From contig OY754464.1 of the NCBI GenBank assembly GCA_963575645.1, forward strand, positions 8,804,001 to 8,868,000: a stretch of DNA of 64,000 nt, in the 5' to 3' direction. The DNA is from Xanthostigma xanthostigma. Lineage: Eukaryota > Arthropoda > Insecta > Raphidioptera > Raphidiidae. Position numbers and translations under genes: made by a program. Of the stretch, positions 3,103 through 52,702 are shown piece after piece (position 1 is the stretch's first letter; each line of letters opens with the position of its first letter). Under the pieces are notes generated by a model. The model was not told the DNA's origin, made no database searches, and was given only the letters and a program-made list of their open reading frames with translations.

Positions 3103-3115
3103 TAGACACATTAAT

Positions 3116-3430
3116 CAAATCTTTGAATAACGTCTGAATAGAACTCTTCAAATAAATAAAATTATCGACCAATTTTTTCAGACTATATTATATTATATTG
3201 ACAAAAATTATAAAATTATAATTCAATTGATGACGTTTAGGTCCGGATTTGGACCTTCTTCAGAAATGATACAAAATGTAAAAATTAATTAGTATCTACT
3301 TATTTTCTAATAGAATTAAGTTTGAATTTTTAATTATCGAAATATTAATCTATTGAATTACGAGTATAATTTTTTAATTTTTGTCAATATATAGTCTGAA
3401 AAAATTGGTCGATAATTTTATTTATTTGAA
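3116..3430. mobile_element. Penelope-derived inverted repeat, 13-bp target duplication (copy 1)
   Basis: The left end runs TCAAATCTTTGAATAACGTC and the right end is its near complement through the motif GTCTGAAAAAATTGGTCG, so the element folds back on itself. The perfect 13-base duplication TAGACACATTAAT flanks it at 3103-3115 and 3431-3443. Inside, on the minus strand, is a degenerate hammerhead-like core: CTGAAGA is kept but the conserved GAAA has become TAAA. The family is assigned to Penelope-like elements because the larger copy at 51583-52689 carries a GIY-YIG coding remnant between the same ends. Confidence 0.75.
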
Positions 3431-3443
3431 TAGACACATTAAT

Positions 3444-3902
3444 TTAGAAGCGAAAATGGGGCAAACATTTTTTTTCTATTTTTTATATATTTTTCAATAT
3501 TTTCGTGTTTTTTAGTTAATCATATAAAAAATAGAAAAACAAATTTTTAGCCCTATTTTCACCTCTAAATTAAAATTAGAAATATTGGTGGTAGAGTTCC
3601 GGGGGATGGGACTTTTTTGTTGGAAATTTCCCGCTCTTTCAGAATCTTTCTTGTAATTTCAGGTATCTGCAATAGTTTTTGAGATATTCGCAAAAAACCA
3701 AACCCCCTTTTTTTTACTAAAATGTTTACAACTTTTGAAATTTTTCGTCCCCCACTTCAATTCTGTCAAAAACTTTCTAGATGTCGTTCCGAATCGAATG
3801 AAACCATGGTCATAATTTTCGGTGAAGGACTGGAATTCATCAAAAAGGGACATGTGACCTAGACTAAATGGGGATTTACCCCCTACATCCAAACTTACAA
3901 AC
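3444..3902. other. Spacer between two Penelope-derived repeats
   Basis: The sequence contains an imperfect inverted repeat around 3445-3580 (CTATTTTTTATAT and its complement) and a stretch with the motif GATATTCGCAAAAAACC common in insect repeats. A 97-codon frame on the minus strand (3659-3952) has no recognised similarity and overlaps the next element, so I do not call it a gene. Confidence 0.4.
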
Positions 3903-3915
3903 TTTACCTCTTTAT

Positions 3916-4189
3916 TAAAATCTTTGATTAACGTCTGATTAGAATTCTTCAATAAATAAAATTATCTACCTTTTTTTCAGACGAAATATATTAACAAAAA
4001 ATAATAACTAATACATTGACGTTTCGGTCCGGATTTGGATCTTCTTCAGAACTGATTATTAAATTATTATTTTTATATTTTTTAGATCAGTTTTTAAGAA
4101 GCTCCAAATCCGGACCGAAACGTCAATGTATTAATTATTATTTTTTGTTAATATATTTTGTCTGAAAAATTGGTCGATAATTTTATTTA
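3916..4189. mobile_element. Penelope-derived inverted repeat, 13-bp target duplication (copy 2)
   Basis: Near-perfect foldback whose arms each contain the 3' end of the family. The perfect 13-base duplication TTTACCTCTTTAT lies at 3903-3915 and 4190-4202. The left arm, read on the minus strand, keeps an intact hammerhead-like core. The right arm has a damaged one (TTAAGA in place of CTGAAGA). The paired inverted ends match the inverted terminal arrangement known for Penelope-like elements. Confidence 0.8.
4010..4060 (-). ncRNA. Hammerhead-ribozyme-like motif in Penelope-derived repeat
   Basis: Read on the minus strand: CTGAAGA (4043-4049), a stem II of about five pairs closing GATCC against GGACC, then GAAAC (4021-4025) followed by GTC. 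This fits the hammerhead core CUGANGA, stem II, GAAA, with a two-pair palindromic stem III (ACGT) and a GUC cleavage triplet. Stem I pairs weakly (TT against AA, then internal mismatches). Minimal type I hammerheads of this form are known from Penelope-like elements and are thought to act as dimers. Activity here is unproven. Confidence 0.6.
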
Positions 4190-4202
4190 TTTACCTCTTT
4201 AT

Positions 4203-4599
4203 AATATTAATATATAGACAAACAATGATCTAATAAATTATTTGCAGAAAACAATTTGGACGAAGTATTGTACTACACCCGACAGGTGGTCCAGTAGACC
4301 GTCTCGCGTCTGCAATATTCTAGCGGTTCACCTTAATTAATGGCCGCTTATACCATTATACGTAATGTATATAATATGGAACAAGCGTATTTTTCTCGGC
4401 TGCATATTTTACAACTTTATTGTGTAAAAAGTTTAGAAGTTATAAATGCCCGCATTAAAAATAAAGAACCTTTTTGTGACTCGAAAACAACTCAAAATAA
4501 AAGAGGTGTTCACAGACATTTGCTTTTTGTATACAAACTACATTACTATATATTTTGTATATAGTTACAGAATATAGACGATTCTTAATTGCTCTACTT
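4203..4599. other. Spacer without recognised features
   Basis: A 74-codon frame (4340-4564) lacks any motif I recognise. Nothing else stands out. Confidence 0.4.
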
Positions 4600-4797
4600 C
4601 AGGGGTCGGCAACCTGCGGCTCGCTGCTCTTTTGATGTAAAGCTGCGGCTCTCCAGTTCCATACGCAAAAAATAGTTATTTTATTATATAAACCCTTCAA
4701 AATCGTCCAATCGATCCATGATTGAGCACCATGTCTATCGCCCAGCCATTTGCACTCGCGTCTCACCCGCACCGATCCCGTCGTCACGTGTCGTCCT
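4600..4797 (+). mobile_element. hAT element end fragment
   Basis: It begins CAGGGGTCGGCAACCTGCGG, the terminal sequence of a widespread animal hAT family (the GCGGCTC repeat follows twice). The matching right end is missing, and a Helitron-like element starts just downstream. Only a truncated end is supported. Confidence 0.55.
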
Positions 4798-4806
4798 CGG
4801 ATATAA

Positions 4807-5192
4807 TCCCTATATTATTAAACGAGCTAATCTTGTATCTACCTATGTACCTATGTCCCTAAATATTTTCTCGAAAACGGCCCTAACGATTTAGATGAAA
4901 TTTACTGAAAAGGGATTTTGTCGGGCAAAAAATCGTTTTAGCTAGGTCTCATCTCTCGAAAAAATTGTTTTCTTACAAATTTTATCATTATAAAAATCAA
5001 TTTTTTGACGTATGAAAATACTTAAATATTGTAAGTAGGTTTTGGAATTTTATACAAACAATGAAACAATTGTTTTCAAAATATTATGACAGTTAATCTT
5101 TAATTACTATCCAAGTGAGACTTAAAATAAATACGTATTTGAATATCAGTATTTTATTTAACTTTCCGAGCAAAGCTCGGTCACCCAGCTAC
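4807..5192 (+). mobile_element. Non-autonomous Helitron-like element
   Basis: The 3' part carries the hairpin CCGAGCAAAGCTCGG (5166-5180) followed by TCACCCAGCTAC, resembling a Helitron end (hairpin about 10 bases before CTRR, here CTAC). The 5' start near TCCCTATATTATTAAACGAG is inferred. The middle (4870-5150) is repeated in inverted orientation at 41930-42185. Confidence 0.6.
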
Positions 5193-5449
5193 TATATATT
5201 ATGCTTATAGGTATAAGCAAATACTACAATCCGCGAATTTTTGGGATGCTTTTTCGATTCGTGCTATCATTTCTTCACATGTGTTAACCAGGCTTGTGAA
5301 TTAATTAAATTTAAAAAACTTAATTAAACCTTGGACAACTATTTGTCTCTTATTTTTGAGTTTTGATAAAAAAAGTTACCCAAAATATTTGTTCGTCTAT
5401 TTTATTTCTAAAAGCTGTTAAAAAAGAAGAATCAACTTAAAAATCATTC

Positions 5450-5867
5450 TGTAGGTATATATAAAAAACTTGTGTCACGATGTTCGTCCGCGCTAATCTC
5501 CGAAACCGTTGAACCGATTTTAATGAAATTTTGTAAAGTGTGTTGTTTGGTCCAACTGCGAGACTATAGGATAGTTTTTATTATATTTTGTACAAAATAC
5601 GGCGTTTTGTAAATAAAACTATTTTAGTAACACGTAGCGACATCTCATAGACTTTACTCAAAGCTATTAGTTCAGAAGCAAACAAAAAAAACTGTTTTAG
5701 TACCAAGTAGCGACATCTGATATAGTTCGCTCAAAACTATTAGTTCAGAAGCAATTCTGGTAGAATTTGCTCAAAGCTATTAGTTCGGACGCCGGACCGC
5801 AAACTAAATAAGTACATTTTGCAGAATTATTTCAATCGCACTCGGGTGAAACCGGGACGGTCGCTAG
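5450..5867 (+). mobile_element. Non-autonomous Helitron, family 2
   Basis: It starts near TATATATAAAAAACTTGTGT and ends with the hairpin CTCGGGTGAAACCGGG then ACGGTCGCTAG (CTAG at 5864-5867) followed by T, as expected for a Helitron 3' end in an A/T target. Inside, a unit with TAGCGACATCT and CTATTAGTTCAGAAGCA is repeated about three times between 5630 and 5795. Other copies: 16425-16660 (5' half) and 43845-44250 (opposite strand). Confidence 0.75.
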
Positions 5868-7090
5868 TTACGATATAAATTCAACAGTTCTTTTGGAAAT
5901 ATAAAATATATTTAAGGAATATTTGAGCAAACCTGTGTTGCATACAGACGCCATGTTTATACATAATGTAACACAATAACAATGGACTACCCTCTTCTGC
6001 ATTTATACAAATTCTAAACAATCCAACACAGATTATGCATATTTAAATGTGGCTGTCTGTTATTCACCACCGGCACCAGGACTCTACCCGCGCTGTGTAC
6101 ACTTTTCACCCCAATATATTCTGCATTGCGCGAGGGGAAAGTGACACAAACTTTGGGGGAAAATTATATAAAAACAGTTGGGAATGAATAGCTCTATTTT
6201 TATTATAATATCTTGCCAAATCTTTCATCATTTTCATTAGACGAGGATTTAGCATCAGCTTCGAAGGATTAATGGATTGTTGTAAAATACAATTAGAATT
6301 TAGAACAACTAAAAATAACACGTCTTTATATAGACCAGTACTGCAGTTAGCCCAAAATCAAGTGAAAAAAAGACAAAATTAATAACAGAAAACGAATTAT
6401 GAGGAAGGGAAGAAACTGCCGTCAGAAATACAGAAACCAAAAATTAAAATGCGTAGCTGTGGGGGGCGCGTTTTAGTGGTCAAACGCTGTTTTTCGTTAT
6501 TTCCGGCGAAAGTTGACCCCCCAATCGAAAAATGTTGTGTGGCAATGTTGTAGGTATTAAAGGGATCTACAACTTTTATAAATATAATTTTTTCACATAA
6601 CCTTAAAGATTCAGAGAAATATCGAAAAAACGTGTTTTTTGTTTTTAATTTTTTTCTCCTGCAAAAATGATTTTTTATTCATGAAATTTTCAGGAGACTT
6701 ACCTTTCTATGTCCCTAATAAGCTGTAATTTTTTCGAATAAAAAAATTAATTTGCCAATGCAATATTAACAAAAAACCAAAAAATTACCCCTAATTTTAA
6801 CCTAAAAAAGTAATGTAAAAATTTCAGATTTTCAAAAATCGTAGTATGGGGTTTTCTTCGTTAAAATGTCTACTTTCAGATGGTGTATTACATTTGTTAA
6901 TGTAACATTGAATTCCCCTTTTAGGAATGATTTTAATTGTACATTTTCATATATAATTGTTTATTGTTGTTTCAACAGGGCAAGCCCCATACAAAAATAT
7001 AAATTTGAAATATTTGTGTAGCTTAAAAAATATAATAAAAAAATTAAAATATAAGTAATTAAATAAGGAGTATTACAAAAATACTAAAAA
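5868..7090. other. Spacer, probably degraded repeats
   Basis: The stretch has no open frame with recognisable similarity. The part 6400-6860 has the sentence AGTTGACCCCCCAATCGAAA and long A and T runs typical of old insect repeats, but no second copy occurs in this window. Confidence 0.4.
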
Positions 7091-7590
7091 AATAATTGCC
7101 GAACAATATTGTACTTCCCGTTGACTCCAGAATCTTGAAATTTGGCAAGAAGCAATGTCTTATAGCACAAGTAAAGGGGAATTTTCAGTTACGTCACAAA
7201 AAAAATAATGTTTTTAAACCGCAACAACATGCTACGCACATACACAGTAACAGTTCTAATACAAAAACAAGCGTCCGCTACCGGTGCTATATACAGCACA
7301 ATTTGAGAACTCTCGCATACAACACGGTACGACAACTAAGCTATCATATACAGCCACGAGGCACAATACAGTTCAGTAGTCCATCTGAACTCATTGAAAC
7401 TACACGCTTAGTTGGCAAACTGACCGCGACGTTTGTCGATGTATGGGGGCAACAGTTTTCCGACGGCTAAGCGGGAAAAATCTTCGAGACTCGATTCACG
7501 TGATGGCCGAACTATTTACATACACACTAGTTTGTACGGAACCCTCGGTGCGCGAGTCCGACTCGCACTTGGACGCGGTTTCTCATTTTA
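7091..7590 (+). mobile_element. Dispersed repeat Q, 3' part (copy 1)
   Basis: It holds the family's characteristic segments: ATCTTGAAATTTGGCAAGAA, CTCGCATACAACACGGTAC, TTTTCCGACGGCTAAGCG, and the terminal GTGCGCGAGTCCGACTCGCA. The same order occurs at 50010-50322 and, on the other strand, at 9617-9980. A 124-codon frame at 7096-7470 falls wholly inside the repeat and is not supported as a gene. This family is abundant in moths and butterflies from memory. Its class is not decided here. Confidence 0.7.
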
Positions 7591-7684
7591 AGCTTATTCA
7601 AAAAAGTAAACACTATATAGACACTTCCTAAAGCCCTATGGACACTGCAACTTTAAGTTACTAGCAGCGCCACTTAAGTGACTA

Positions 7685-7865
7685 TTCTAGCAACTAGTAA
7701 ATCTTCTCAGTTATAGATGTCCGCGTCAACAAAAGCCACACACAGCAAGCGTTACGCGCTGTCATCTATAACGGAATTCTAGTAACTAAATTTCGCCCTG
7801 TTATCTAGATGTCGCCTTCAACTAAAGCCACACAAACGTAACGTCCTCCCATAAAAGTGTCGCGC
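7685..7865. repeat. Two diverged tandem units of about 95 bp
   Basis: Two neighbouring blocks share CTAGNAACTA, TATAGATGTC or TCTAGATGTC, CAACNAAAGCCACACA and a CGTTACG or CGTAACG run. The spacing suggests an old tandem duplication. Confidence 0.45.
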
Positions 7866-8059
7866 TAATTGCGCGGTTTTATCATACATTTAATAACCTC
7901 TATATTGCTAGTGGCTGTAAGTGGAAGCGGGGTCCATGAAGTGAGTCAGCAAATGACTGTTTCTATTTCTTTCTTTTTACTTGACCCGTTGTGCGCAAGT
8001 GTCGCGTCTGTAGTGGGGCAATTAGCAAGTGGAATAGAGCAAGCCACCTCCCTTTCACA

Positions 8060-8304
8060 GCAAACTGACGCGCATCAATTCACGGACATGCGCATGAGAC
8101 TCAGAGAAGTGAAACAGACGTACCCTAGCACTGGCTATGCCAAGTTGGGTAGGTTAATTCCAAAGAAACTTTATTTTATTTTGTACCTTGAATGTAAAAC
8201 TATTATTGGAATAAATTATTTCTATTTCCAATGTCTGCACCGTAGTGTTTAAGTCTTTCTCCCGATTTTCGCTAGCAATATAGAGGGTATTAAATATACT
8301 ATTG
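8060..8304 (-). repeat. Stray inverted unit of the 145-bp satellite, split by an insertion
   Basis: Segments 8060-8122 (GCAAACTGACGCGCATC onward) and 8236-8304 (CGTAGTGTTTAAGTCTTTCT onward) are the reverse complement of one unit of the tandem array at 28667-29400. About 110 bases at 8123-8235 interrupt the unit. A 127-codon frame across this region (7869-8252) is a by-product. Confidence 0.7.
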
Positions 8305-8350
8305 TTTTACTCCTAACCAAATGCGCCATTAGATGTTTGACATAAAAAAA

Positions 8351-8720
8351 AGACGGGTTGCACTCCGGGAGTGCCGGCAGAAGTGAAAACTTGAATATTA
8401 ACGTTTATGTTAAACGACCAAAGCGCAGAAAAGTTTGAACTAATAACTTCCAAGAAATTCCGTCTGATGTCGCCAAAACACAACTTATAGTGTAGTTAAA
8501 AACCATTCGATTGCATAGACAAGTCCCAAAAAAAATATATAGGTACCTTGCACATTAATACAATGGATTTCATTTAGGGCATGTCACAAAAGTTTTCGTC
8601 TTACGAATTTTGTCTTACGCATTTTCGATCAGGTCACGTGTCCTGACGCGAGTTTAACATTTTTTACCCATTACAAAAAAAGTGTACAACGCCGCTAAAG
8701 AAGTTTTCACTTCAAAAAAA
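8351..8720. mobile_element. MITE with GAAGTGAAAACTT ends
   Basis: The left end reads TGCACTCCGGGAGTGCCGGC then AGAAGTGAAAACTTG. The right end has AAGTTTTCACTTC. The short shared inverted motif and the left-end sequence resemble a non-autonomous repeat I associate with moth genomes. The exact ends are not fixed. Confidence 0.5.
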
Positions 8721-9616
8721 TGGAGTCACCTCTACCCCACAGTTATGACACAACGGCATTATTATAATATAGCCGAGGTGTAGCGTTGTCTTTGGCCGTC
8801 GTCGCCTGCCGGACAAAGTCCTCTGCAATACCCGGTGACAGCAGCGACGTGTTGCGGTAAATCTCTCTACTACAGCGGTCACTATACCGCAATACGAATC
8901 AGCGCGGTTTGTGTGGTTTACCACCACTAACTGGTAGCCAGTTCATGTTCCACACTTTTTTTACATACTTTCTCTAAGCCCAACATTAAAATATGGTAAA
9001 CATATTCCAACGGAGTTTCGACCAAAACACGCAGTGCAAAAATCATGTTTATCTTAAAAGGTTGCGAGTGACCTCGAAAACTTAGACCTAAACAATTTGT
9101 AAATAATTTCTTTACTGAAAAAATCATTACAAAGGTGGTAATTATATACAATACATGTAGGTACAACATAAATCACGAAAATTGTACAATAGTTATTAAT
9201 ATTTTAAAGCTAGTATTAGACAATAATTTATGTGTCTTAAAATAGAAATAATAATCAATTGACAATAATTTATTTAAAAAAAATATTTTCTCTGTTTTAC
9301 ACCCGTATAAATGATTATCAAATATTTAATAACAAATTATTATCGACTAAAAGCAGATTAATTCTGAAAACCATGATTTTATCAGAACAACGACGATATT
9401 TCCAATTAATCTGCCTCCTCCCTAGGGGACTGTGTCAAAGTTTAGTAAAATACCACCGCGCGAGTGCAATTTGAAGATTTTCTCATAACTGTTATTAAAA
9501 AAAACAATTGGCGAATTTGCAGATTGCCGCTGTTTTTTAGTCGGCTTACGTTGCAAAATTGATTGATTCAAATTAAAAATATTCTGTGCGCCAATTTCGC
9601 ACACCAATAGAGATAC
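8721..9616. other. Spacer without recognised features
   Basis: Short overlapping frames on both strands (71, 80, 71 and 77 codons) lack motifs. No repeat partner in this window was found. Confidence 0.4.
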
Positions 9617-9980
9617 AAAAAAAAACCCGGCCAAGTGCGAGTCGGACTCACGCACCGAGGGTTCCGTACAAACTTACGTATATATAAATTGTTCGTCCAT
9701 CACAGGAATCGAGTCTCGAAGCTTTTTTCCCGCTTAGCCGTTGGAAAAATGTTGTCCCCATACATCGGCAAACGTCGCGGTCAGTTTGCCAACTAAGCGT
9801 GTAGTTGCCATGAGTTCAGATGAACTACTAAACTGTACTGTATATCTAAATGTCGTGCCGTGTTGTATGCGAGAGTTCTCATATTGTGCTGTACAAAACG
9901 CACCGGTAGCGGACGTATGTTTTGTGTACGTGTGTGGCACGTTGTGGCCGTTTAAAAACATTTTTTTGTGTGATGTAACT

Positions 9981-11567
9981 GGGCCATAGCGGAATAAGCA
10001 TGGGTAAGGTGCCCCCGCACGGATTGGGTTAGTTTTTTTTTCATTTATAGCGATTGATAAATGAATAAGATTTGGAAAATTTCAGCCCTAAAAAATCAAC
10101 CCCTGGGGAGTGAGAATTAATTTTCGAAAAATCATAAAAAAAATCATAACTTTTGAATAGCTGAACTGATTTTGATGAAAATTTAATATGATTTAGATAT
10201 TACTACAGCGCATCTTAAGAAAAATTATCAGCTCGAAAAAAAATATATAACCTAAAAAAAAAAAAAAATTCAGTTTTTATTTTTTTTTTTAATTATTTGC
10301 AATTTTGGTACAATCACCAAAATTTTTGTAAACATTTCTGAAACTACTCTACGTAACGCATAATTTTTTCATAGCGAGATTCCGGGTGCGTCATGGTTAA
10401 AAAAATAAAAAAGTTTGAAAATATTTTTTTTTTATATGTTATGATCATGGTACAATTATAACAATTTTTGACGTGATAACGTCTTATAAATTGATGAAAC
10501 ACCAGCTGCACGCACCAAAAAGTGTAACGTTCCGAAAAGTGTAACGTTCCGATTGATGAAACACCAGCTGCACGCACGAAAAAGTGTAACGTTCTGAAAA
10601 GTGTAACGTTCCGCCTGACCCTGTGCGTGCAAGCAAGAGCGCAGTAATGTATTATTAAATATGATATTCGAGCGGAATACGTTATCACGTAAAACTATCG
10701 TCCGTAAACCGACTTTACAGACAACCAATTTTTTTGTAGGTTCGGGAATCTTTTTAACATAACATATTATTTTTTTCGGAATTTAAAAACACTAAAATGA
10801 CTAATAGCAGTTAATTCGCCTCTTTTACTTTTTTTTCCTTCAACTCATTCGTTGTTTCAGTTCTGTTCTTTAGACCTGAAGCGAATACGAATAGAATAAT
10901 CACTAGTATCAGAAAGAAGTAATAAGAAAGTTTTTGTACATAACATTATCAGTTCATGCATGTTAAAAAGAAGCTATAAAAAATATTTTCAAACATTTTT
11001 ATTTTTTTGACCATGACGCACCCGGAAACTCGTTATGAAAAAATTATATGTTATGTTAAACAGATTCCCGAACCTACAAAAAAATTGTTGTAATTGTATC
11101 ATGATCATAACCTATAAAAAAAAATATTTTCAAACTTTTTTATTTTTTTGACCATGACGCACCCTGAAACTCGTTATGAAAAAATTATATGTTACGTAGA
11201 GTAGTTTCATAAATTTTTACAAAAATTTTGGTGATTGTACCAAAATCGCAAATAATTAAAAAAAAAATTAAAAACTTAAATTATTTTTTTTTTGAGGTTA
11301 TATATTTTTTTTCGAGCTGATAATTTTTCTTATGATGCGCTGTAGTAATATCTAAATCATATTAAATTTTCATCGAAATCAGTTCAGCTATTCAAAAGTT
11401 ATGATTTTTTTATGATTTTTCGAAAATTAATTCTCACTCGCCAGGGGTTGATTTTTTAGGGCTGAAATTTTCCAAATCTTAATCATTTATCAATCGCTAT
11501 AAATGAAAAAAAAAACTAACCCAATCCGTGCGGGGGCATCTTACCCATACTTATTCCGCTATGGCCG
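9981..11567. repeat. 1.6-kb imperfect palindrome
   Basis: The arms of roughly 500 bp can be followed through TCGCTATAAATGAAAAAAA, GGGGTTGATTTTTTAGGGC, ATCAGTTCAGCTATTCAAAA and GTTTCAGAAATGTTTACAAA-like blocks. The centre includes ordinary AT-rich sequence (10740-10960). The arm difference created by the insertion at 10470 shows that the inverted duplication is older than that insertion. Confidence 0.75.
10470..10730 (+). mobile_element. Poly-T-targeting element, family T (copy 1)
   Basis: It starts GACGTGATAACGTC and ends CTTTACAGACAACCAA, with T runs on both sides. The uninterrupted site survives in the other palindrome arm near 11080 as CAACAATTTTTTTGTAGG, so the insertion duplicated about five T. 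Subterminal motifs GTGATAACG and CGTTATCAC are inverted copies. Inside, a 60-base unit with GATGAAACACCAGCTGCACG is present twice in tandem (about 10494-10615). The family has no coding sequence and no class that I recognise. Confidence 0.75.
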
Positions 11568-11976
11568 GGTTTTAGCATTTTTCCCTCTACTTGTGCTATA
11601 AGACATTGCTTCTTGCCAAATTTCATGATTCTAGATCAACGGGAAGTACCCTGTAGGTGTTGATTCCCAAGAGTCTTGACAGACAGACGGACAACAAAGT
11701 TATCCTATAAGGGTTCCTTTTGAGGTACGGAACCCTAAAAATAATAAAATCGTACAATAACTCTATTCTAGCAATCGAGAGATAATGTTTTTAATCACAC
11801 ATTTGATCAGTATCAAATAACAGTGCAAAGAAAGTTCTCAAATTTAGTTATATTTTCTCAGATAAATATTTTAATATTTTTTTCACTGCGTGACAGTTTA
11901 CAGAAAAATTGAATAAGTTTTTTAATGTTTTTTTATAATAAAATATTTAAAATTAAACAAACTCATAATAATAATC

Positions 11977-12577: not shown

Positions 12578-12618
12578 ATGTATATTGTTAGAACAATTTA
12601 CCACCATTTGACCAGCTT

Positions 12619-12661: not shown

Positions 12662-12720
12662 TAGCGTAACATTGGTAAAGCTTATTTAAGATCCTCAACC
12701 AAAACCTTCCCTCATCGTAA

Positions 12721-13135: not shown

Positions 13136-13140
13136 AAAAA

Positions 13141-14141: not shown

Positions 14142-14577
14142 ACTAATAATAATAATGCGTTTAACGTCCGTTTCTCGACTTTATGTCATAACAGACGCCA
14201 TTCGCACCGTTACTATTTTCCATCCACCGTACACTTCTCGTTATTTTCTACATTTTTAAACTTCCACCTAATTAATAGCAATGGGCTAATGAAGGAATTT
14301 TAGGACATTAGGATAAGGTAAGTAAATTTTGAACATAGGAGTTTGACAGGTAATCAGCCATGGTCTTGAATAAGGAACCATCTCGATATTTATCTGGAAT
14401 TATTGAGGGAAACCATGGAAAACCTCGACAAGATGGCCGGTACAGGAATTACCATTTCTCGGCGAGAGGCAGCAGAAAAAACTCCCAGCCACATCTGTCC
14501 CGCCGGGATTCGAACCCGGTACCTCCCGAATGCGAGTCTAGTGCTCTCACCACTACGCCATTCCGTTATATATGGCT
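14142..14577 (-). mobile_element. tRNA-headed SINE, full-length copy
   Basis: On the minus strand the element starts with a tRNA-like head (14500-14575): A-box-like TGGCGTAGTGGTGAGAGC, then GGTACCGGGTTCGAATCCCG with a perfect B box. A body of about 330 bp follows, then a tail of TTA repeats (at 14142-14158 on the plus strand as AATAATAAT). The head, body and simple-repeat tail are the hallmarks of a SINE. Related copies: 19687-19757, 20467-20597 and 25114-25443. Frames of 112 and 60 codons in the region are by-products. Confidence 0.8.
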
Positions 14578-18491: not shown

Positions 18492-18948
18492 TAGAGTGCC
18501 CGTCGGCAAAAATTTTACTGAGAAATACTCTCCCCAAACTTTATATATGGCTTCATTAGGCCTAGTCTGACACCTATTTCCTCTATGACTTTTTTTGATT
18601 TTGGGGCGTTTTCCCTCCAAGTTTTCCGAAACATGTCGTTTTGACGACATGTAAAAATTTATAGATACTGTTTGTTTTTTTAATTGGATAGCTTAAAAAC
18701 TTCAACCAAAACGCTAAAATAATGTTCTCTGACAAGTAACATGAACCATTTAAAATGTCTGACACCTCGAATATGTCGAAATGTTCGAGGTGTCAGACAT
18801 TTTAAATGGTTCATGTTATTTAGAGGGAGAACGCCCCAAAATCAAAAAAAGTCATAGAGGAAATAGGTGTCAGACTAGGCCTAATGAAGCCATATACAAA
18901 GTTTGGGGAGAGTATTTGTCAGTAAAATTTTTGCCGACGGGCACTCTA
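18492..18948. mobile_element. 457-bp foldback MITE with TA flanks
   Basis: Almost the whole element is an inverted repeat. TAGAGTGCCCGTCGGCAAAA at the left mirrors TTTTGCCGACGGGCACTCTA at the right, and the arms meet near 18780 around CGAGGTGTCAGACATTTTAA. The left arm has about 80 extra bases (18630-18710). TA at both edges suggests a Tc1/mariner-type target. Minor frames of 60 and 62 codons are mirror images of each other. Confidence 0.8.
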
Positions 18949-19757: not shown

Positions 19758-20058
19758 TAACTGCATAATCTTTTCAGCATTGACTTTATGTCTTCTAACT
19801 ACGGGATTAATTCACCTATGAACAGGATTACTAAGCTTTATAATGATATCACTATGAAAAATAATGATATTGACATATTCAATATGTCTTATTTTACTTT
19901 TAAAAAGAGCTCATCAAATACTCTTTCTATCACTTCATAAGTTGGCTGGCTATTCTTATTCTTATACTTTATTTTCTTTTGTATTTATTCTGAATATTGC
20001 ATTTTTTTTCTTTTTAATTCTTTATTGTACACAGAACACATAGGTACATGTTTTTTCT

Positions 20059-20340
20059 TCAATAAATAAAATTATCGACCAATTTTTCAGACAATATATT
20101 AACAAAAAATATCAATAATACATTACAGAACGGATCTAAAAATATAAAAAAATAATTAATAATTAGTTAACTAATTATTAATTATTTTTTTATATTTTTA
20201 GATCCGTTCTGAAGAAGATCCAAATCCGGATCGAAACGTTTAATGTATTATTGATATTTTTTGTTAATATATTGTCTGAAAAATTGGTCGATAATTTTAT
20301 TTATTGAAGAGTTCTAATCAGACGTTAATCAAAGATTTGA
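20059..20340. mobile_element. Penelope-derived inverted repeat, 13-bp target duplication (copy 3)
   Basis: The arms meet near 20170 at an AATTAGTTAACTAATT palindrome. The right end is the family 3' end: GTCTGAAAAATTGGTCGATA to AATCAAAGATTTGA. The duplication ACATGTTTTTTCT is perfect at 20046-20058 and 20341-20353. The right arm carries a hammerhead-like core. The left arm has lost the core but keeps sequence on both sides of it. Confidence 0.85.
20201..20250 (+). ncRNA. Hammerhead-ribozyme-like motif in Penelope-derived repeat
   Basis: CTGAAGA (20209-20215), stem II GATCC against GGATC, then GAAACGTT (20233-20240). The core CUGANGA and GAAA are intact and stem II pairs perfectly. One extra T after the ACGT stem III and poor stem I pairing suggest reduced or no activity. 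Confidence 0.55.
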
Positions 20341-20466
20341 ACATGTTTTTTCTGTCTGTTTCTTACAATGTAATAATCTGACAACTGACTATTTTTTTTC
20401 TGTATTAAGAGATGTCATTTATCCGGACCTAGAGTCTGTTTGGCACCCATCTTTAAATAAATAAAT

Positions 20467-31679: not shown

Positions 31680-31883
31680 CGAATGGAAAGTTTTCTAAAT
31701 GAAATAAGTGAGAATTGATTGGTTAATTAATTAATCAATTGATTGTGCTGTGAGTGGATGTCAAAAAAGTAAAGTTGGCCAACCAAAAAAGTGATTCCAT
31801 CCAACTTTACTTTTTTGACATCCACTCAAAGAACAAGGAACCAATCAATTCTCACTTATTTCATTTAGAAAACTTCCCATTCG
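31680..31883. repeat. Palindrome nested in the 1.1-kb element
   Basis: GAATGGAAAGTTTTCTAAAT and its near complement ATTTAGAAAACTTCCCATTC form the ends. The inner part GGATGTCAAAAAAGTAAAGT also has its complement. Confidence 0.8.
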
Positions 31884-39584: not shown

Positions 39585-39765
39585 CTTCATTATATATTTC
39601 TGAAGAAGGTCAAAATCCGCACCGAAACGTCATTTATTGAGATATTGAATTATAATTTTTTGTCAATATACAGTCTGAAAAAATTGGTTGATAATTTTAT
39701 TTATTTGAAGATTTCTATTCAGACGTGAATCTAAGATTTAGATTAGATTTTTTTAAAATTAGTTA
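39585..39765 (+). mobile_element. Penelope-derived 3' end with hammerhead-like core (copy 4)
   Basis: CTGAAGA at 39600-39606, then GAAACGTC at 39624-39631, TCAATATACAGTCTGAAAAA and the tail to CTAAGATTTA follow the family. The left arm is reduced to the fragment TTTGGAGCTTCTTCA. A target duplication is not clear. Confidence 0.65.
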
Positions 39766-43705: not shown

Positions 43706-43844
43706 AAAATGTTAGGTGCGGAAACACGAGCCGCCATGCTTGCCTATTGTGACGTCATTTTTGTAGTAAACAAACAAGTGAAAAAAATGCTCGGTGTCGT
43801 TTACACGAGGCACACGTGGTCCGTCCCGTGTATATGTAGGTATA

Positions 43845-44250
43845 CTAGCAGTCTGTCCCGGTTTCACCCGGGTGCGATAGATATAATTCTGCAAAATGTA
43901 TTTCGTTTACGGCCCGGCGCCTGAACTAATAGTTTTGAGCAAATTCTACCAGATTTGCTTCTGAACTAATAGCTTTGATCGAAATCTAACAGATGTCGCT
44001 ACTTGTTACTGAAACCGTTTTTTGTTTGCTTCTGAACTAGCTTTGAGTAAATTCTATAAATGTCGTTACATGTTACTGATACAGTTTTTTGAGAAAACAC
44101 CGCTATTTTGTAAAAAATATTTAATAAAAAACTATCCTATAGCGTAAGTTGCCCTAAGCAAGACACATTTACAAAATTTCATTAAAATTAGTTCAGTGGT
44201 TTCGGAGATTAGCGCGGCCAAAATTGTGACACGAGAATTTTATATATATA
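43845..44250 (-). mobile_element. Helitron family 2 (second full copy)
   Basis: The plus strand begins CTAGCAGTCTGTCCCGGTTT then CACCCGGGTG, the complement of the 3' hairpin end. The far side ends ACACGAGAATTTTATATATA, the complement of the 5' start. The flank before is A and the flank after is AT-rich, as expected. Confidence 0.75.
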
Positions 44251-44815
44251 CTACAAGTCTGACGTCACTAAGTATAGATCAAGTATCGATTAACAATTTC
44301 ATACCGAAATAAATTCAATACTGTTTTTGTTGTCAGTGCTCCGTTGTCTAATCATAATTTCAATAAACTTTTCATATAAACTCATAGAATCTCATAAAAT
44401 GTTCAATTTATTGTTATTGAAAATATAAAGAAAACAGATAATATAAAATTGCAATGGTTTATTTTAATAATTTTATTATTTGCTCCACAACAAATCACTT
44501 TTTATCCGCATTAGATTTATGTCGGCATTGGCGCCAACACTAGTTGCGTGGTCTGTAGAATTTATGATATCTTGACTACACCACCCACTGATGGTTATTA
44601 CAGTTATAGAGCAGTAGTTCCCAACAACTGTCTCTGTTTAGTAAGTTCATAACAATAGGGAATATTCAGAAGTTTCTTTTTTATTTAGAAAGAAAAATTA
44701 AGTGCTTCAGCTTATCACATAGTTTTTGAGTCTTTCCCATTGAGAGATTAAATAAACACGAAAAAAACGTTTATTTGTAGCCTTGAAACTATATTATGCA
44801 TCAGTAGAGTGATCA
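44251..44815. other. Spacer without recognised features
   Basis: No gene or repeat partner recognised. Confidence 0.4.
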
Positions 44816-45253
44816 TTACACCTATCCCCCGATTTACACGGTAGATACGATCCTGAGAAAAACGTGTAAATCGAAAATTAAAAATTTTCAAGTCAAAACC
44901 GTGTAAATCGAAAAGCTTGCAGAAAATGCATAATTTTGCTATTTAACAGTTGTGGTTTTTTTCAATATTTTTAGGTGTACACAAAAATAAAAATAAAATG
45001 CATTGACAGGTTAAAATATGTAATATATTACGGAAACATTTTAATTTTATGCGAAGAAATACAGACACAGTGTGCGTGTGCAGCAAGTCAGCACATAAGC
45101 TCGGGATTCCCCGTGAGATGTGTACACAGCGCACGTGTTCAATCACAGTAGCATTTAGTAGAGTGCGATAAAAACAAAAAAAAACTTATTTGGAAAACCG
45201 TGTAAAAGCGAAAACGTGTAAAACAAGTACCGTGTAAATCGGGGGATGGGTGT
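44816..45253. mobile_element. TIR element with CCCCCGATTTACACGGTA ends
   Basis: ACACCTATCCCCCGATTTAC at the left and GTAAATCGGGGGATGGGTGT at the right are inverted. CGTGTAAATCGAAAA and related phrases recur inside near both ends. A 67-codon frame inside lacks motifs. Class unknown. Confidence 0.7.
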
Positions 45254-45500
45254 ATTTTAATTATGACAGAGTCTCCAAGCACCTAAGTGGGGGACAATAG
45301 AAGACTTGAGCCACCCCTCCCCTCTAGCTTTTGGTGTAGTCATTTTTTTTAATGTAAATCAGTTACAAGATATAGAAATTTTTACTTTATCATATAAACA
45401 CAAGGTACTCATAGTACGAACATGATATGATAAGAAATCACCGGAAGAAATTTTCGTTTTAGCTTTTTCTGAAAATTACTGAGACTATGTTATAGCATTG

Positions 45501-46038
45501 ATTAAGGTAGTACGAGCCCCAAGGCAATTTTAAATAAAAGGCTTGATTTTTTTAATATGAAGTTGGACTAAGTATAAAACAGTTCTGAAAATTTTAGGGG
45601 GGGTTGCCCGGTTATTTAAATAAATAAATGACTTCAAAAGTAGGCATATTTAACATTGGCTTTATAGTAAATCGGTAGATGGATGATGTTTTCATTGATT
45701 TCTCCAAAACTAGTCGGTGGAAATTAAAAAAAAAACTATTTGAATTAAAGTTAAAACCTTAATAAATTAATGAAAACAAAAATAACGTTGTGCCCGACTA
45801 ATTAAAAAGATATTTAATTGTTTTAATTAAATATCTCTTTAATTAGTCGGGCACAACAGTTTTTTTTTGTTTTCAATAATTTATTATTATGTTTTAACTT
45901 TAATTTAAATAGTTTTTTTTTAATTTCCACCGACTAGTTTTGGAGAAATCAATGAAAACATATCATCCATCTACCGAAATATATAAAAAAAATCAAGGCT
46001 TTTATTTAAAGTTGCCTTGGTGCTCGTACTACCTTAAT
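45501..46038. mobile_element. 538-bp foldback element with TTAA at both edges
   Basis: ATTAAGGTAGTACGAGC at the left mirrors GCTCGTACTACCTTAAT at the right, and the arms are nearly complementary down to AAATATCTCTTTAATTAGTC around 45830. Half of it, including the centre, is repeated at 54433-54745. TTAA at each edge could be a 4-base duplication of the piggyBac type, but the ends do not resemble piggyBac. Confidence 0.7.
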
Positions 46039-46709
46039 TTATCTAAAAAAAAAATATTATTTAAAAACCCAATTATAACAGCGGGATATTGTGCAATATA
46101 CGGACAAATGACGTAAGATGACCTTTGAAGGACAAATAAAATCGCGATGTCAGTCACTAGATGGCCCTAATGGTTGCCAGCACAATTCACTCCGGAAACT
46201 CTACATATTCTATATTCAAAGATTAAAATAATATAACTTAAAATTATTGTCAACAGATGGCTGGTGCTACGCCATCCATTGACGTCCATAAAAAGTAGCC
46301 TCATTTTGGTTCCCTTGGTTATGAATCTTCCTATAATGTTTCAATCAATGGTACTAAATAGTACTAAAGAGTAATAATTATTTTGTATTGGTCAGTTGAA
46401 AATTCTGCATTAATGAAAAATAAAGAGCTATAAATTAAATTTTAATTCATAATATGAAATGTAGTTTTTACAAATCTCACAAGCATTTCTTGTAATATGA
46501 AATTATAATGGAATTTGTTTGAATCAGTATAATCCTTTTTTTCTTCGATTGAAACTTCACCGAAAAACGTAAGAGTATTTTTAGTACATTGAATATTTAC
46601 TAAAATGGGTAACAGCTTTGAAGAAAGTTGATATTTTTCCCAGTGCCCTCCCCACCTCTAAAATTAATTATATGGACGTCCTTGCCTCAAATGATGTATA
46701 AATAAATTA
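46039..46709. other. Spacer without recognised features
   Basis: No recognised content. Confidence 0.4.
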
Positions 46710-47134
46710 AAAAAAAATTGGTTGTCTGTAAACTCGGTTTACGGACGATAGTTTTACGTGATAACGTATTCCGCTCGAATATCATATTTATTAATACATA
46801 ACCTAAATTTTAGTAGCTGTCAAACTATATTTTTACCGACTAATAATTTGATCAACCAAAGCAAAATACATATTTTTAAGCAATTATTATAAAAGACATT
46901 TAAAAGAATGTATATATATTATATATTTGTTAACAACCCGTATAATTTATCTGGCCATCTGTCAGATGTAGCTTTCGCTGGAACAGCCGAAAAAAATGTT
47001 GAACGCACACTACTCTCTGACGTCACGCGAGAAGAGAGAGACTATCGCTTATATCGCGCTCTCGCTTGCGGAACGTTACTCTTTTTCGTGCGTGCAGCCG
47101 GTGTTTCATCAATTTATAAGACGTTATCACGTCA
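46710..47134 (-). mobile_element. Poly-T-targeting element, family T (copy 5)
   Basis: TTGGTTGTCTGTAAACTCGG near 46719 to ACGTTATCACGTC near 47134, with A runs on both sides of the plus strand. It follows the long form at 35726 but lacks its 200-base extra block. A 102-codon frame (46908-47216) spans its right end and is not a gene. Confidence 0.75.
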
Positions 47135-47142
47135 AAAATGTA

Positions 47143-47565
47143 CAAAGTTTGTAACTGCCCAATCTAAACCCGTGTCATCATTGTTATGTACATTTTTCCG
47201 ACAAAGTGTTATTTAAAAGTTACAAGATATCAATAAAGCATATCTATAAATAACAGTAGAGCGCCGAAATTGCAATATTACAAAACACGCACGTTGTGTA
47301 CATGTTTGTAGAAATAACGGATCCGTTTTTCATTTACTCTACAAGTCTCCAAGTTACATTTAGGAATATCATGTAGAAGGATAAGAACGCAGAAGTGTGT
47401 TTGTGTGTGTGTCATATACTAATAATTTTCGAGCCCCCGAGGAACACTCACGTTTTTTTGCCGGGCAATTCTCGATTGACGGGTGCCGTACATAAAGTCT
47501 ATGTGTTAACTAGGTTGTGCCTTTCCGTTTTTTAGATTCTTAAAAAAGCTGCTCGCCTTGCAAAA
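47143..47565. other. Spacer without recognised features
   Basis: No recognised content. Confidence 0.4.
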
Positions 47566-47920
47566 AAAAAACGAGTGTGCTTTAGACCACACGACTGAAG
47601 TAAAACTTCATCCTGCCATAATTTGTTATTCACAAAATATGAAGTTTAAAATTAATTTATGATTTTATTTTTAACTTAAACGTAGAATATGATGTATTGA
47701 ACAAAATATTAATTTATAAAATTGTTCAAGAACGAAATGAAATTACGAAATATTCAAGAAATCACCGTTCGCGTAACGCTAAATAATCAAGATATCACCG
47801 TTCGCGTCAACTTCCATTCGCCTCGCCCGATCACACTTTTCGTAAAAGCTCTCGTCACGCATTCACCAGCTTACTCCCCAAGTCAAGCGTGCGTAAAGAA
47901 GTTTTATTTCAAAAACACCA
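47566..47920. mobile_element. Repeat with AAGTAAAACTTC ends (copy 2)
   Basis: GAGTGTGCTTTAGACCACAC then GACTGAAGTAAAACTTC at the left, CAGCTTACTCCCCAAGTCAA and GAAGTTTTATTTC at the right. ATCACCGTTCGCGT is repeated twice inside (47760 and 47796). A 70-codon frame here is not supported. Confidence 0.65.
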
Positions 47921-48004
47921 ACAAAATTGTTTAGGTGCTACAAATTCATCTATACTAATTAGTAATTATGATGCTTTGATAAAGAAATTCTTCGTAGCAT
48001 AGGA

Positions 48005-48305
48005 TTAAATAAATATAGTTTAAAAAAAACTAAAAAACACGCTTTATATCGAACTAAAAAGTAAAAAATATTTTTTTAAAATAGGCTTAAAAAGCGTGGG
48101 GATATTTGTTCCACATTTTCGTACATCGAGCGCCCCACACTTTTTAAGCTTATTTTAAAAAAAATATTTTTTACTTTTTAGTTCGATATAAAGCGTGTTT
48201 TTTAGTTTTTTTTAACTAGGTATATTTATTTTTCACTTTTTAGTTTGATATAAAGCGTGTTTTTTAGTTTTTTTTAAACTATATTTATTTTCCACTTTTT
48301 AGTTC
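48005..48305. repeat. Palindrome with extra tandem arm
   Basis: AAAAAACACGCTTTATATCG (48030) is mirrored by CGATATAAAGCGTGTTTTTT near 48183, and the right arm is repeated once more in tandem near 48240-48290. The loop includes GTGGGGATATTTGTTCCAC. Confidence 0.75.
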
Positions 48306-48344
48306 GATTTATTGTAAAAAATTTGCCGAAAAAAAACTTTTTTT

Positions 48345-48440
48345 TTTCGACGTGGACGGGATTAGAACCCACGACCCATGATGCCGAGAGTTGACGTCAG
48401 CGAAGACCCGTGCCTTAGACCGCACGGCTACCAGTGTACT
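48345..48440 (-). pseudogene. tRNA-like sequence with long variable arm (Leu/Ser type)
   Basis: On the minus strand GGTAGCCGTGCGGTCTAAGG gives a D-arm and A box, and GTCGTGGGTTCTAATCCCG gives a T-arm with B box, which lacks the usual G of TTCGA. The distance between them suits a class II tRNA. The anticodon stem is unclear, so it is more likely a tRNA pseudogene or SINE head. A gene-finder score would decide. Confidence 0.55.
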
Positions 48441-49054
48441 TACTGTGCTGGCATATTATACCGCTATATAAACCACTTGCTGTAGTCCAAATGAAAATTA
48501 CAAACAAGCATACATACATACAAACTTACAAGTGAAGTTAATATAAAGCGTGTAAAAAGAAAAGCAATACCGGTCAATACCAAGACATCGGTTCAGGACA
48601 AATACGAATCAAAGATAGATGCAGCATTGCAGCCTCGAAGACTGCAGCTTTCTTGCCTTTCGCCTTTTGTAGAATATGAACTCTTCAGTTAATGCCGTAT
48701 CGTGTAGATCATATTTTGCGTAATACCGCGACGTCTTCACCTTGTGCGACGACGTCACGTCACGTGACCCGACATTCTAGCCTTAACACAACATGCACAG
48801 ATGTTTTTTACTGACCTCTGCGTTCTATATTATACGTATAATATATGCAAGGTTCAATATATTTTGCCTAAGTAGACAAGTATGCTTACAGTATTCTGTA
48901 TTATCCCGGCTCACAGCTCTAATCTTATATAGCATGCTACATGTTCGAAAAGTTATCTTTTTTTTATTAAATCTATAACTGTGGCTAGTCGGCAAAACCG
49001 CTTATGTCGAAATTTCCATAATCAATACTAGTGATATAACGAATGTCAATTTTC
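48441..49054. other. Spacer without recognised features
   Basis: No recognised content. Confidence 0.4.
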
Positions 49055-50322
49055 AGGGTTCCGTATCCGAAGGGTGCCCAACGGGACCCTATTACTAAGT
49101 CTCCGCTGTCCGTTCGTCTGTCTGTCAGCGGGCTGTATCTCATGAACCGTAATATAGGTTACCTATATATCCGCCATCTTGATTTTTCATTATTGGATGT
49201 AAAAATTCACACTCTGAAAATCTCAACTCTCTATACCTATAATAATTAATTATATATATATTATATTATATATATCCAATAATGAAAAATCAAGATGGCG
49301 GATTTCAAAATGGCCTCCATACTTGACTCTTCGTTAGCGATACTCGTGCAGTTATAAAAAACAAGGGCGCAGATAGGGGGAGGGTAAAGAGGGTAACTAC
49401 CCCTCCCTGGGACCATAATAATAATAAAAATAAAACTGAAAATAATAGGATTACCTGGCTAAAAAATAAAATTTAGTAATACCTCTTGACAAAACAATTA
49501 TAAAATTGGTTTGGGAATTTATATTTTTCTCTGTGAGTATTCTATTAATAAAACTTAAAAAAATATTGATTTATTTTGCTATACCTACCCCTTCTCCAGA
49601 AAAAAATATCTAAGCCCTTGATAAAAAACATTAAAGAATGTGACCGTCGATGTTGTAATAGTTTATTACGACATAAGCGCTTTTACCTTCTGCCCACGGA
49701 TATGTTCTAAGAGCCTTATTCATAAAAAAATGTTTTTGTTATCTACAATCTGAAGTTTGCGAAGCTGCGCGTAAGCCATAAGACCGTGTTACTATTTTTT
49801 TTATATTAATTAATTTTGAATAACAAAGGTTACCATCTCAAAATTTTTTGTTTCAAAAATAACTATTATTATTTCAGAAACTTAACACCGTTAAGGAATT
49901 TTAAACCGACGAACCCAAAACATTTGATAATTTTTTACGATTTTTCACACGATATGAATAAAACTAATATTTGAAGTCAAACTTCTTTATGCCGTGGTGG
50001 GAGTAATCCGCTGCCGATGCGTTTATACAGCACTATATGACAACTCTCGCATACAACACGGTACAACAACTAGGCTATCAGATATTGCCACGAGTTACAA
50101 TACAGTTTAGTAGTCCATCTGAACTCGTTGGAATTACACGCTTAGTTAGCAAACTGACCACGACGCTTGTCGATGTAAGGGGACAACAGTTTTCCGACGG
50201 CTAAGCGGTAAAAATATTCGAGACACGATTCCCGTGATTGACGAACTATTTACACACCTACAAGTGTTTACAGAACCCTCGGTGTGCGAGTCCGAGTCGC
50301 AGTTGGTCGGGTTTTTTTTAAT
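49055..50322 (+). mobile_element. Dispersed repeat Q, end-to-end copy (copy 3)
   Basis: The 5' side starts AGGGTTCCGTATCCGAAGGG, with CCTATTACTAAGTCTCCGCT and GGCTGTATCTCATGAACCGT. The 3' side ends CCCTCGGTGTGCGAGTCCGA and GGTCGGGTTTTTTT. In between lies a short inverted repeat (CATCTTGATTTTTCATTATT at 49171 with its complement near 49272) and AT-rich sequence. This copy shows that the two signature sequences are ends of one unit of about 1.3 kb. Confidence 0.7.
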
Positions 50323-50925
50323 AGTGTAATATTTTAATAAATATTATTTTTAATAAAGTTGCTTAGCATGAATTAACTCCTGTTCCATTTGCTTGTTAAT
50401 ACCATCCATCAAGCAAGCAATTTCCACGGCTTTGTCAAATTTTAGCGTCTTAACGTCTTCTAGAAACAGTTTGTTTCTGACTGGACCGCCTACAAAACCT
50501 GTTACAAATTTGTCTCTGAGAGCTGTGTCGAAATGATCTTGAAACTCGCAGTATATCGCCAATTACGAATTCTAGCTGCCCATTCACGGATAGATTCGGA
50601 TTCTTCTTTCGCTGCAGTGTAAAAATGTCACCTTTCTGCGAATCCAGAACGTACTGGTTTAAATTAAATCCTTATATAGCGTATCATCCGGTTCTTCAGG
50701 AAAAAAATAAATTTGTAGGTTTTTTCTTGAAGTGAGTTGAGCAAGATAGCTCTTTTAATCTGTGCTTCCACAATTTTATTTGAAACGAAGAATTGCTCGA
50801 GTTTTTTCTTATGAAAGGACCAGTAATTTTCATTATGATCAAATTTATCTACTGAACCAATTATTGCAGCCATTATTTTTATTAGTTTGCGTGAATCAAT
50901 CTCGTCGCCAGTGTAATATTTTAAT
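50320..50925 (-). pseudogene. LTR retrotransposon gag remnant between two LTR-end fragments
   Basis: On the minus strand an LTR-end-like sequence (ATATTTATTAAAATATTACA) is followed directly by CTGGCGACGAGATTGATTC. This is a primer-binding-site-like start for the Gypsy group. Two gag pieces follow: 50664-50873 (GSVDKFDHNENYWSF, then KKKLEQFFV) and 50350-50562 (LRDKFVTGFVGGPVRNKLF, then DKAVEIACLMDG). These phrases match the gag of insect Gypsy-type elements. The same LTR-end sequence recurs at about 50322-50345, so most of the element, including pol, was deleted between the gag and the second LTR. Frame breaks separate the gag pieces. Confidence 0.7.
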
Positions 50926-51569
50926 AAATATTATAAATTTTAATAAAGTTATTTTTTAACATAAAAATAATAATTTTGTATTGATCATATAAATGCTGGA
51001 AATACAATGAATTTATCTTTTACAAAAATGAATAATTTTACAATCTGAAGTAATTATCTAACTACCGAATCTATAGTACCTAATTATTATGTAAAGTTAG
51101 GTCTGTACAAAATACATTACAAATAGAATAACTTCTTCAGTGTCATTTCTAAAACAGACCTCAATTTTTTAACCAGTCTGTATATAAACACAAAAAGGGA
51201 TAAAGAGACAGACAGAAGACATTGTAAAGCAGTGTTAGTTTCATTGAAACATCGCCGACGGTTTTCAGATAGTGGAGTTTTAATCAACGTACTGCCAACA
51301 TACAGACGGACAGACAAACAGATGAAACTTTTTTAACGGATCAAGAGAGAGAGAAACTTGTGTGGGTGTCTAATGAGATTTTCAGTTGGATTAAATATAA
51401 AATGGAGCCCGGGGAGTAACGTCAACATTTGTCTTAACCCGTTACTGTTCAATTGCTTTCTTTTCAGTTTCGACTAAATGAAAAAAGTTACCGATTTCAT
51501 TATTTTTATAATATACCGAGTGGTGTTCATATAAACACGAATTTTACATCTGCTCCCCTGATTTTTAAA
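50926..51569. other. Spacer without recognised features
   Basis: A 66-codon frame on the minus strand is not supported. Probably includes LTR remains at its left side. Confidence 0.4.
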
Positions 51570-51754
51570 ACAAGTTAAATTAAATAAAATTATCGACCAA
51601 TTTTTCAGACAATATATCAACAAAAAATATAATTAATACATTAACGTTTCGATCCAAAAAATATAAAAAATAATTAATAATTAATTTCTAATTCGCTTTA
51701 TGTAAAATTCTTTCAAAATAATTAATTATTATCAAAATATTGAAAAAATAATAT

Positions 51755-52248
51755 TATACAGATTGTATCAAATCAAAACAGTCCATAGAACATTCTGTGT
51801 GTAAGACAGAGACGATATTATATAAAGCACTAAAGCAGTAAGTAAGAATGAGATAAATGATCGCTAATAGTTACTGTGGTTATACAATCTGATAGTATCG
51901 TCTTTGTTTTCTACAGTAAAAATCACAATTTTATCAAATGTCAGTATTCACTAATGAAATTATTGATAAAATGGCTATTTATACTGTTCGGGAAAAAATC
52001 CCAATAATTAAATGGTTTTATGGTGGTAATTCAACCGCCAACATAAAAAATTTATTTGTAGTTGTTTTAATTGATAAGTTGGTAAAAAGATTTACAGTGT
52101 ACGTAATTATTTATTTACGTAACTACAGTAACTATATTAGCGATCATTTATCTCATTCTTACTTACTGCTTTAGATCTTTATATATCGTCTCTGTCTTAC
52201 ACACAGAATGTCCTGTGGACCGTTTTGATTTGATACAATCTGTATATA
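51755..52248 (+). mobile_element. Mariner-type foldback inserted in the Penelope copy
   Basis: TATACAGATTGTATCAAATC at the left mirrors GATTTGATACAATCTGTATA at the right. The arms extend about 140 bases (TAAGAATGAGATAAATGATC and its complement). The ends start in TATA, so a TA target is possible. It contains the short transposase-like frame at 51938-52174. Confidence 0.7.
51938..52174 (+). CDS. Fragment resembling the N-terminus of a mariner-type transposase
   Basis: The 78-codon frame begins MSVFTNEIIDKMAIYTVREK and continues IPIIKWFYGGNSTANIKNLF. The phrase YTVREKIPIIKWFYGGNS is close to the first helix of DUF4817-type helix-turn-helix domains found at the start of insect mariner-like transposases. 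The remainder runs into the right inverted repeat and is not conserved, so only about 40 residues are informative. It sits between the inverted ends of 51755-52248, in keeping with a deletion derivative. It is not an intact gene. Confidence 0.5.
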   Translation: MSVFTNEIIDKMAIYTVREKIPIIKWFYGGNSTANIKNLFVVVLIDKLVKRFTVYVIIYLRNYSNYISDHLSHSYLLL

Positions 52249-52591
52249 TTACTTAAATTTTCCGTATCTAATTGAGCATTGAGAGAATTTTTATTTGATT
52301 TTATATGTAACATTTCCGAAATATTTATTTTAAAAAAATTAGTTTTATTATCTAAAATTTTTATATTATCCCAATTAATTTTGTGGTCAAGTTAAAATTT
52401 GTGTTTACCTAGTTATTACATTGTTTGTCAGGGATTAATTTATGATTATTTTGATGTTCTCTTATTCTTGTTTTAAGAGCTCTTTTTGTTTGACCAATAT
52501 AATTCTTATTACAATTTTCACAATTAATTTTATATACAACATTATGCTTTTGTAATTTATTAATTTTATCTTTTCCCTTTTTAATAATTTA
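52246..52591 (-). pseudogene. Penelope-like GIY-YIG endonuclease domain remnant
   Basis: The minus strand encodes about 115 residues, interrupted by a stop at 52409-52411 and a frameshift. The first part reads VYKINCENCNKNYIGQT, then KTRIREHQNNH. The variant V-Y-K-I with N-Y-I-G-Q-T is the GIY-YIG signature of Penelope elements, with C-x2-C in between. After the frameshift, INWDNIKILDNKT, then ISEMLHIKSNKNSLN, matches the C-terminal part, where E-M is the conserved glutamate helix. The reverse transcriptase is missing. Non-functional. Confidence 0.8.
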
Positions 52592-52702
52592 ATGTATTAA
52601 TTATATTTTTTGTTAATATATTGTCTGAAAAATTGGTCGATAATTTTATTTGTTGAAGAGTTCTAATCAGACGTTAACCAAAGATTTGAACAAGTTAAAT
52701 TA

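Follow-up and report, generated by a model that had tools for sequence, protein, structure and literature searches.

Mostly 13-base duplications flanking a Penelope-like element of Xanthostigma xanthostigma suggest a two-strand cut of set spacing with RNA copied into both ends

We analyzed a stretch of 64,000 nucleotides from the insect Xanthostigma xanthostigma (GenBank assembly GCA_963575645.1, contig OY754464.1, positions 8,804,001 to 8,868,000 of the forward strand; subsequently designated the window), which belongs to a 623 Mb assembly of 28 contigs and contains five insertions that we assign to one Penelope-like element. Three of them are short foldbacks composed of two inverted arms, a fourth is longer and lies between inverted pseudo-long terminal repeats (pLTRs), and the fifth is an older remnant. 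The element carries a short "tail" at one end. The following features were located, in window coordinates:

3103 to 3115: putative left target duplication of copy 1 (raw match 3102 to 3115)
3116 to 3430, minus strand: copy 1, short foldback; the element reads on the minus strand, with the tail at the left end
3431 to 3443: putative right target duplication of copy 1 (raw match 3430 to 3443)
3903 to 3915: putative left target duplication of copy 2 (exactly 13 bases)
3916 to 4189, minus strand: copy 2, short foldback with 87% similarity between its arms over 239 bases
4190 to 4202: putative right target duplication of copy 2 (exactly 13 bases)
20046 to 20058: putative left target duplication of copy 3, locus L026 (exactly 13 bases)
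20059 to 20340, plus strand: copy 3, short foldback with a tail-less left end and the tail at the right end
20309 to 20340, plus strand: tail (GAGTTC..GATTTGA) of copy 3, which in the coding relative L050 sits at the beginning of the open frame
20341 to 20353: putative right target duplication of copy 3 (exactly 13 bases)
about 39598 to 39745, plus strand: fifth, older copy, truncated at the left end
51570 to 51582: putative left target duplication of copy 4 (raw match 51569 to 51582)
51583 to 52689, plus strand: copy 4, longer, between inverted pLTRs, with the tail at the right end
52412 to 52579, minus strand: GIY-YIG coding remnant inside copy 4 (PF01541, E 2e-5, 25.3 bits at a cut-off of 22.6)
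52690 to 52702: putative right target duplication of copy 4 (raw match 52689 to 52702)

The initial annotation of this DNA had claimed that exactly 13-base repeats flank four of four copies. Indeed, the repeats are present and perfect at all four sites, with raw lengths of 14, 13, 13 and 14 bases for copies 1 to 4. Since copies 1 and 4 match over 14 bases, 13 is one register there, and the exact length stands for copies 2 and 3 only. A clean flanking repeat was also sought at the fifth copy (39598–39745) and none was found; the copy is older and truncated at its left end, and the window tally becomes four of five. The annotation was right that three copies are short foldbacks devoid of coding sequence, while the fourth retains the minus-strand GIY-YIG remnant. 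Copy 4 also holds an inverted pair of about 139 bases, 90.6% alike (51746–51882 and 52120–52254), which was seen by eye in L068 as well and probably represents another inverted-repeat element that inserted into the Penelope copy.

To learn whether the 13-base repeats extend beyond the window, copies were collected from the genome in two ways. A search with the tail-bearing end yielded 489 candidates, of which the best 40 were scored; 1.5 kb of flanking sequence on each side was taken for 30 of these ends, whereas for the remaining 10, and additionally for seven of the 30, the sequence taken spanned 9.9 kb. Thirty-two of the 40 exhibited a perfect direct repeat of 11–16 bases (13 bases in 16 cases, 14 in 10, 15 in three, and 11, 12 and 16 in one each), and one further end a 15-base repeat with one mismatch. 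In the second selection the GIY-YIG remnant of copy 4 served as query, and 150 of 1569 candidates were scored. Nineteen places were examined (17 pairs of sequence windows and two stretches); both ends were in view at 13 of them, while one or both ends lay outside at L056/57, L064/65, L068/69, L074/75, L080/81 and L086/87. The raw repeats at the 13 resolved places measured 12 (one), 13 (five), 14 (six) and 15 bases (one).

For the length distribution we used 47 copies from both selections whose two junctions could be placed at the element ends and whose raw match was at least 9 bases. The raw lengths were 13 in 23 copies, 14 in 16, 15 in four, 12 in two, and 11 and 9 in one each. Among 52 tail-like ends, nine without a left end and ten with matches of at most 7 bases (spurious, nested or unresolved, including L044) were dropped. 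L012, L020, L024 and L044 (raw 14, 14, 16 and 15) stand outside the set, as do one more copy in L035 (13) and an older one in L034 (10); the repeat of L044 lies about 470 bases left of its inverted arm.

A raw match can be lengthened only by chance, so that for a duplication of fixed length this length should usually be the minimum, followed by a declining tail of longer matches. In a set of 36 of 51 copies, a fixed length of 13 with chance extension (match probability 0.28) predicted 18.6, 10.5 and 4.4 copies at 13, 14 and 15 bases, and 19, 11 and 3 were observed. Over the 47 copies, log-likelihood was -67.5 for a fixed 13, compared with -88.4 for a fixed 12 and -165.6 for a fixed 14; lengths distributed evenly over 8–18 bases gave -113.8. 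Random mispairing of junctions from different copies gave shared stretches of at least 11 bases in only 2 of 1260 pairs, and in 14 of 870 when the whole upstream 1.5 kb of another locus was allowed. Hence, the 13-base repeats of the window copies are real and extend beyond the window, with the sharp peak at 13 that the initial annotation had named as a check, and a fixed length of 13 plus chance matches at the edges predicts the observed distribution.

Some loci deserve separate mention. L028 and L029 (G000:C9:32222201 and 32220077) are two ends 2.1 kb apart with an identical right flank and probably reflect a local duplication after insertion. At L082/L083 (G000:C13:1041100-1044400) the insertion sits in a host repeat, 203 flank bases of which recur beyond the element. 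At L024/L034 the right end shows GATTTGAAAGATTT ahead of the repeat, which looks like a double copy of the start site, and the raw repeat is 16 bases.

The ends of the element are less constant than the spacing between the cuts they would mark. Right ends vary by a few bases around GATTTGA at the 23 sites with a raw match of 13, and left arms begin 30–40 bases inside the tail end in all 32 copies whose arm end points were compared, out of 33 measured. The two ends start at two internal places of the template, one with and one without the tail. Each place is fuzzy by some bases, while the spacing stays nearly the same. Measured from the tail end, the two arms have their inner ends at 72–973 and 83–788 bases, and these are more than 5 bases apart in 28 of the 32 copies; in 14, the arms abut or overlap (-1 to 6 bases). 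Every copy has its own pair of arm end points, only one couple (window copy 2 and L041) agreeing within 5 bases, and a common inversion point, as required of a self-propagating foldback, was absent in 32 of 32. Because the end points are distinct, the foldbacks look like separately made truncated insertions, not like a self-propagating class. Three candidates for single-armed copies (L003, L011 and L024), which seemed to lack an inverted left arm, were rejected as more shared sequence was found leftward; after this extension L024 has a 16-base repeat.

Coding relatives of the foldbacks are present elsewhere in the genome. L050 and L051 share with the foldbacks the inverted left end without tail, the pLTR and the tail, contain open frames of 837 and 813 amino acids, and are flanked by raw repeats of 14 and 13 bases. 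The L050 frame aligns over 771 amino acids with that of L048 (29% identity, E 2e-70), which matches both RVT_1 and GIY-YIG. A single frame combining reverse transcriptase (RT) and a C-terminal GIY-YIG domain, one hallmark of the Penelope class, is thus reached through the L048 alignment and the window remnant; pLTRs with variable truncation are seen in L050/L051 and in the varying inverted arms of the 32 copies, and the optional tail of 30–40 bases at the frame start is seen in L050 and, at one end only, in 32 of 32 copies. Accordingly classified by sequence, the insertions appear to belong to one endonuclease-bearing Penelope-like element with predicted RT and GIY-YIG activities. A CTGAAGA...GAAAC core was noticed by eye only; no Rfam hammerhead match was obtained up to E 10 in the window, L050 or L048, and the Rfam matches listed all fell under their gathering scores.

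Target sites were tabulated for 42 of the 43 copies with raw matches of at least 13 (one flank was too short), and tests were confined to the 23 with a raw match of 13, whose register is unambiguous. The base adjoining each edge is biased by this choice and was excluded. Of the 23 sites, 19 have A three bases before the left edge. Beyond the right edge, the second base is T in 18 sites and the third in 16; on the inner side of this edge, two positions have T in 17 and 16. When columns were permuted, 16 of 2000 permutations equalled the observed mirror correlation. The sites are AT-rich and show partial mirror symmetry.

Mostly 13-base duplications of this kind suggest a two-strand cut of set spacing, with the RNA copied into both ends. 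A dimer of the RT/GIY-YIG protein of the element would nick both strands 13 bases apart and leave 3' overhangs. Each 3' end would then prime reverse transcription within the RNA of the element, the first 3' end at the tail site and the second at the tail-less site. The two cDNAs would stop at variable points and join, so that the products could range from short foldbacks up to a full-length copy with inverted pLTR, while filling in of the overhangs would produce the constant duplication. One active site per strand in the dimer would account for both the constant spacing and the mirrored site. That a dimeric GIY-YIG enzyme nicks the strands 13 bases apart and that both ends prime reverse transcription appears likely to us, the action of the enzyme being deduced from its footprints. 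We are evenly divided on the stricter version, in which double priming is obligatory: the break made by a symmetric dimer would be concerted, with 13-base 3' overhangs and half sites like TTNN^NTT, the two overhangs would prime from two different defined places of the RNA, and inverted pLTR, tail and foldbacks would all issue from one reaction.

Alternatively, one cDNA could snap back and prime itself, making the inversion, while the cut alone sets the duplication. The arms are indeed the same sequence in inverted order, and self-priming has been proposed for elements of Adineta vaga (PMC3846280). However, by our reasoning a snap-back would be expected to leave a copy of the tail in the left arm, whereas all 32 left arms start 30–40 bases inside the tail end, and this left start fits the second start site used in vitro by an Anolis element (PMC11167929). 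Even granting that our pairing method would under-see tailed left arms, we regard self-priming as unlikely. Somewhat less probable still is that the short foldbacks form a self-propagating non-autonomous family using the enzymes of the element, as the initial annotation had proposed. None of the 33 measured copies exceeds 1.3 kb, and animal retrozymes may depend on Penelope elements (PMC8969392). The arm end points, which differ from copy to copy, speak against this proposal, though foldback RNA could at times be re-used and the comparison covers 32 copies. A LINE-like (long interspersed element) target-primed insertion with loosely spaced second cuts, in which four 13s in the window were luck, would agree with the duplications of 8, 9 or 10 bases or none reported for Adineta (PMC3846280) and with the lengths 10 and 16 outside the 47. 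It is difficult to reconcile with a sharp peak among copies chosen in two ways and with a spacing that stays near-constant despite wandering cDNA start points, and we consider it very improbable. A DNA transposon with terminal inverted repeats and a 13-base duplication can practically be dismissed: foldback shape and constant duplication resemble a cut-and-paste element, but the ends are unequal, wander by several bases and belong to an RT element, the arms vary, and exact symmetric termini with a transposase partner were not seen.

Several points weigh against the double-cut, double-priming interpretation. The flanking repeats are taken for target duplications from the repeats themselves, and no direct repeat was found at 7 of the 40 best tail-bearing ends. 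The 47 lengths are fitted slightly better by a narrow spread around 12.6 or 13 (-64.5 and -65.4) than by a strict 13, so that a share of 12-base duplications is possible. The exceptions within the set have raw lengths of 12, 12, 11 and 9, the last being a 15-base repeat broken by one mismatch; beyond it stand the older L034 copy with 10 and L024 with 16. Copies were selected by their tail-bearing right ends, and the search for left ends reached only about 50 bases outward. Insertions with two tails, or with none, would therefore be under-counted; the left end of L074 does carry a tail, its partner end being outside the view. In 18 of 32 copies the arms fail to meet cleanly, with gaps of up to 946 bases or overlaps of 7–44. 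The frames of L050 and L051 gave no Pfam match to RT or GIY-YIG up to E 10, and their identity derives from the alignment of L050 with L048 together with the window remnant. The left side of the target is unremarkable, with A at -2 in 9 of 23 sites and at two positions within the edge in 9 and 11, and the 42-site table had been placed with a symmetric model and is excluded as evidence of symmetry. Finally, the 3' overhangs are reasoned: extension of both 3' ends combined with duplication of the site requires 3' ends that lie beyond the duplicated bases.

Three further features of the window lie outside the copies. A long palindrome at 18738–18817 with a sub-threshold microRNA match is probably a small inverted-repeat element, and a long hairpin at 31756–31823 likewise has a sub-threshold microRNA match. 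On the minus strand, a tRNA-like stretch at 14503–14560 scores 27.8 bits at an Rfam cut-off of 29 and is possibly the tRNA-derived head of a short interspersed element (SINE) or a tRNA fragment.

Among known systems, LINE-1 twin priming likewise joins two primed cDNAs in inverted order. In LINE-1, however, priming of the inverted arm occurs at dispersed internal positions, whereas here both ends start at defined places. The second Penelope family of the same genome (L048 and L078/L079) resembles ours in its frame with RVT_1 and GIY-YIG, its inverted arms and one longer end. It differs by a protein identity of only 29% and by raw repeats of 15 and 16 bases in two copies, the third being without placed junctions; these two copies neither support nor refute 13 as a general number. 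The Penelope families of Adineta vaga share inverted pLTRs, an optional tail, truncation and target duplications, but their reported duplications measure 8, 9 or 10 bases or are missing, and the inverted arms are ascribed to self-priming (PMC3846280). A fixed duplication length of a Penelope element was not found in literature titles and the beginnings of abstracts, full texts being mostly outside this search.

The closest parallel is the element PAc of Anolis carolinensis (Poseidon/Penelope), which has two internal start sites and whose protein cuts and extends both strands, is a predicted dimer and cleaves at 5'-ATT-3' (PMC11167929). The abstract of that study states that relatively little is known of Penelope transposition. 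Both elements have the RT/GIY-YIG frame, pLTR, tail, two internal starts and an AT-rich target; the T-T after our right edge agrees with part of the ATT motif, and the two end positions fit the two in vitro start sites (PMC11167929). In contrast to PAc, which has a hammerhead motif, Rfam finds none here, and while the main text on PAc gives no duplication length, the genomic footprints described here are 13 bases long and assign one start to each end. Our interpretation thus extends the in vitro work on the Anolis element: with a stagger that hardly varies and a site that is partly mirrored, genomic copies would become readable footprints of the reaction, and this offers exact predictions for the existing in vitro system with regard to spacing, polarity and two start sites on two strands.

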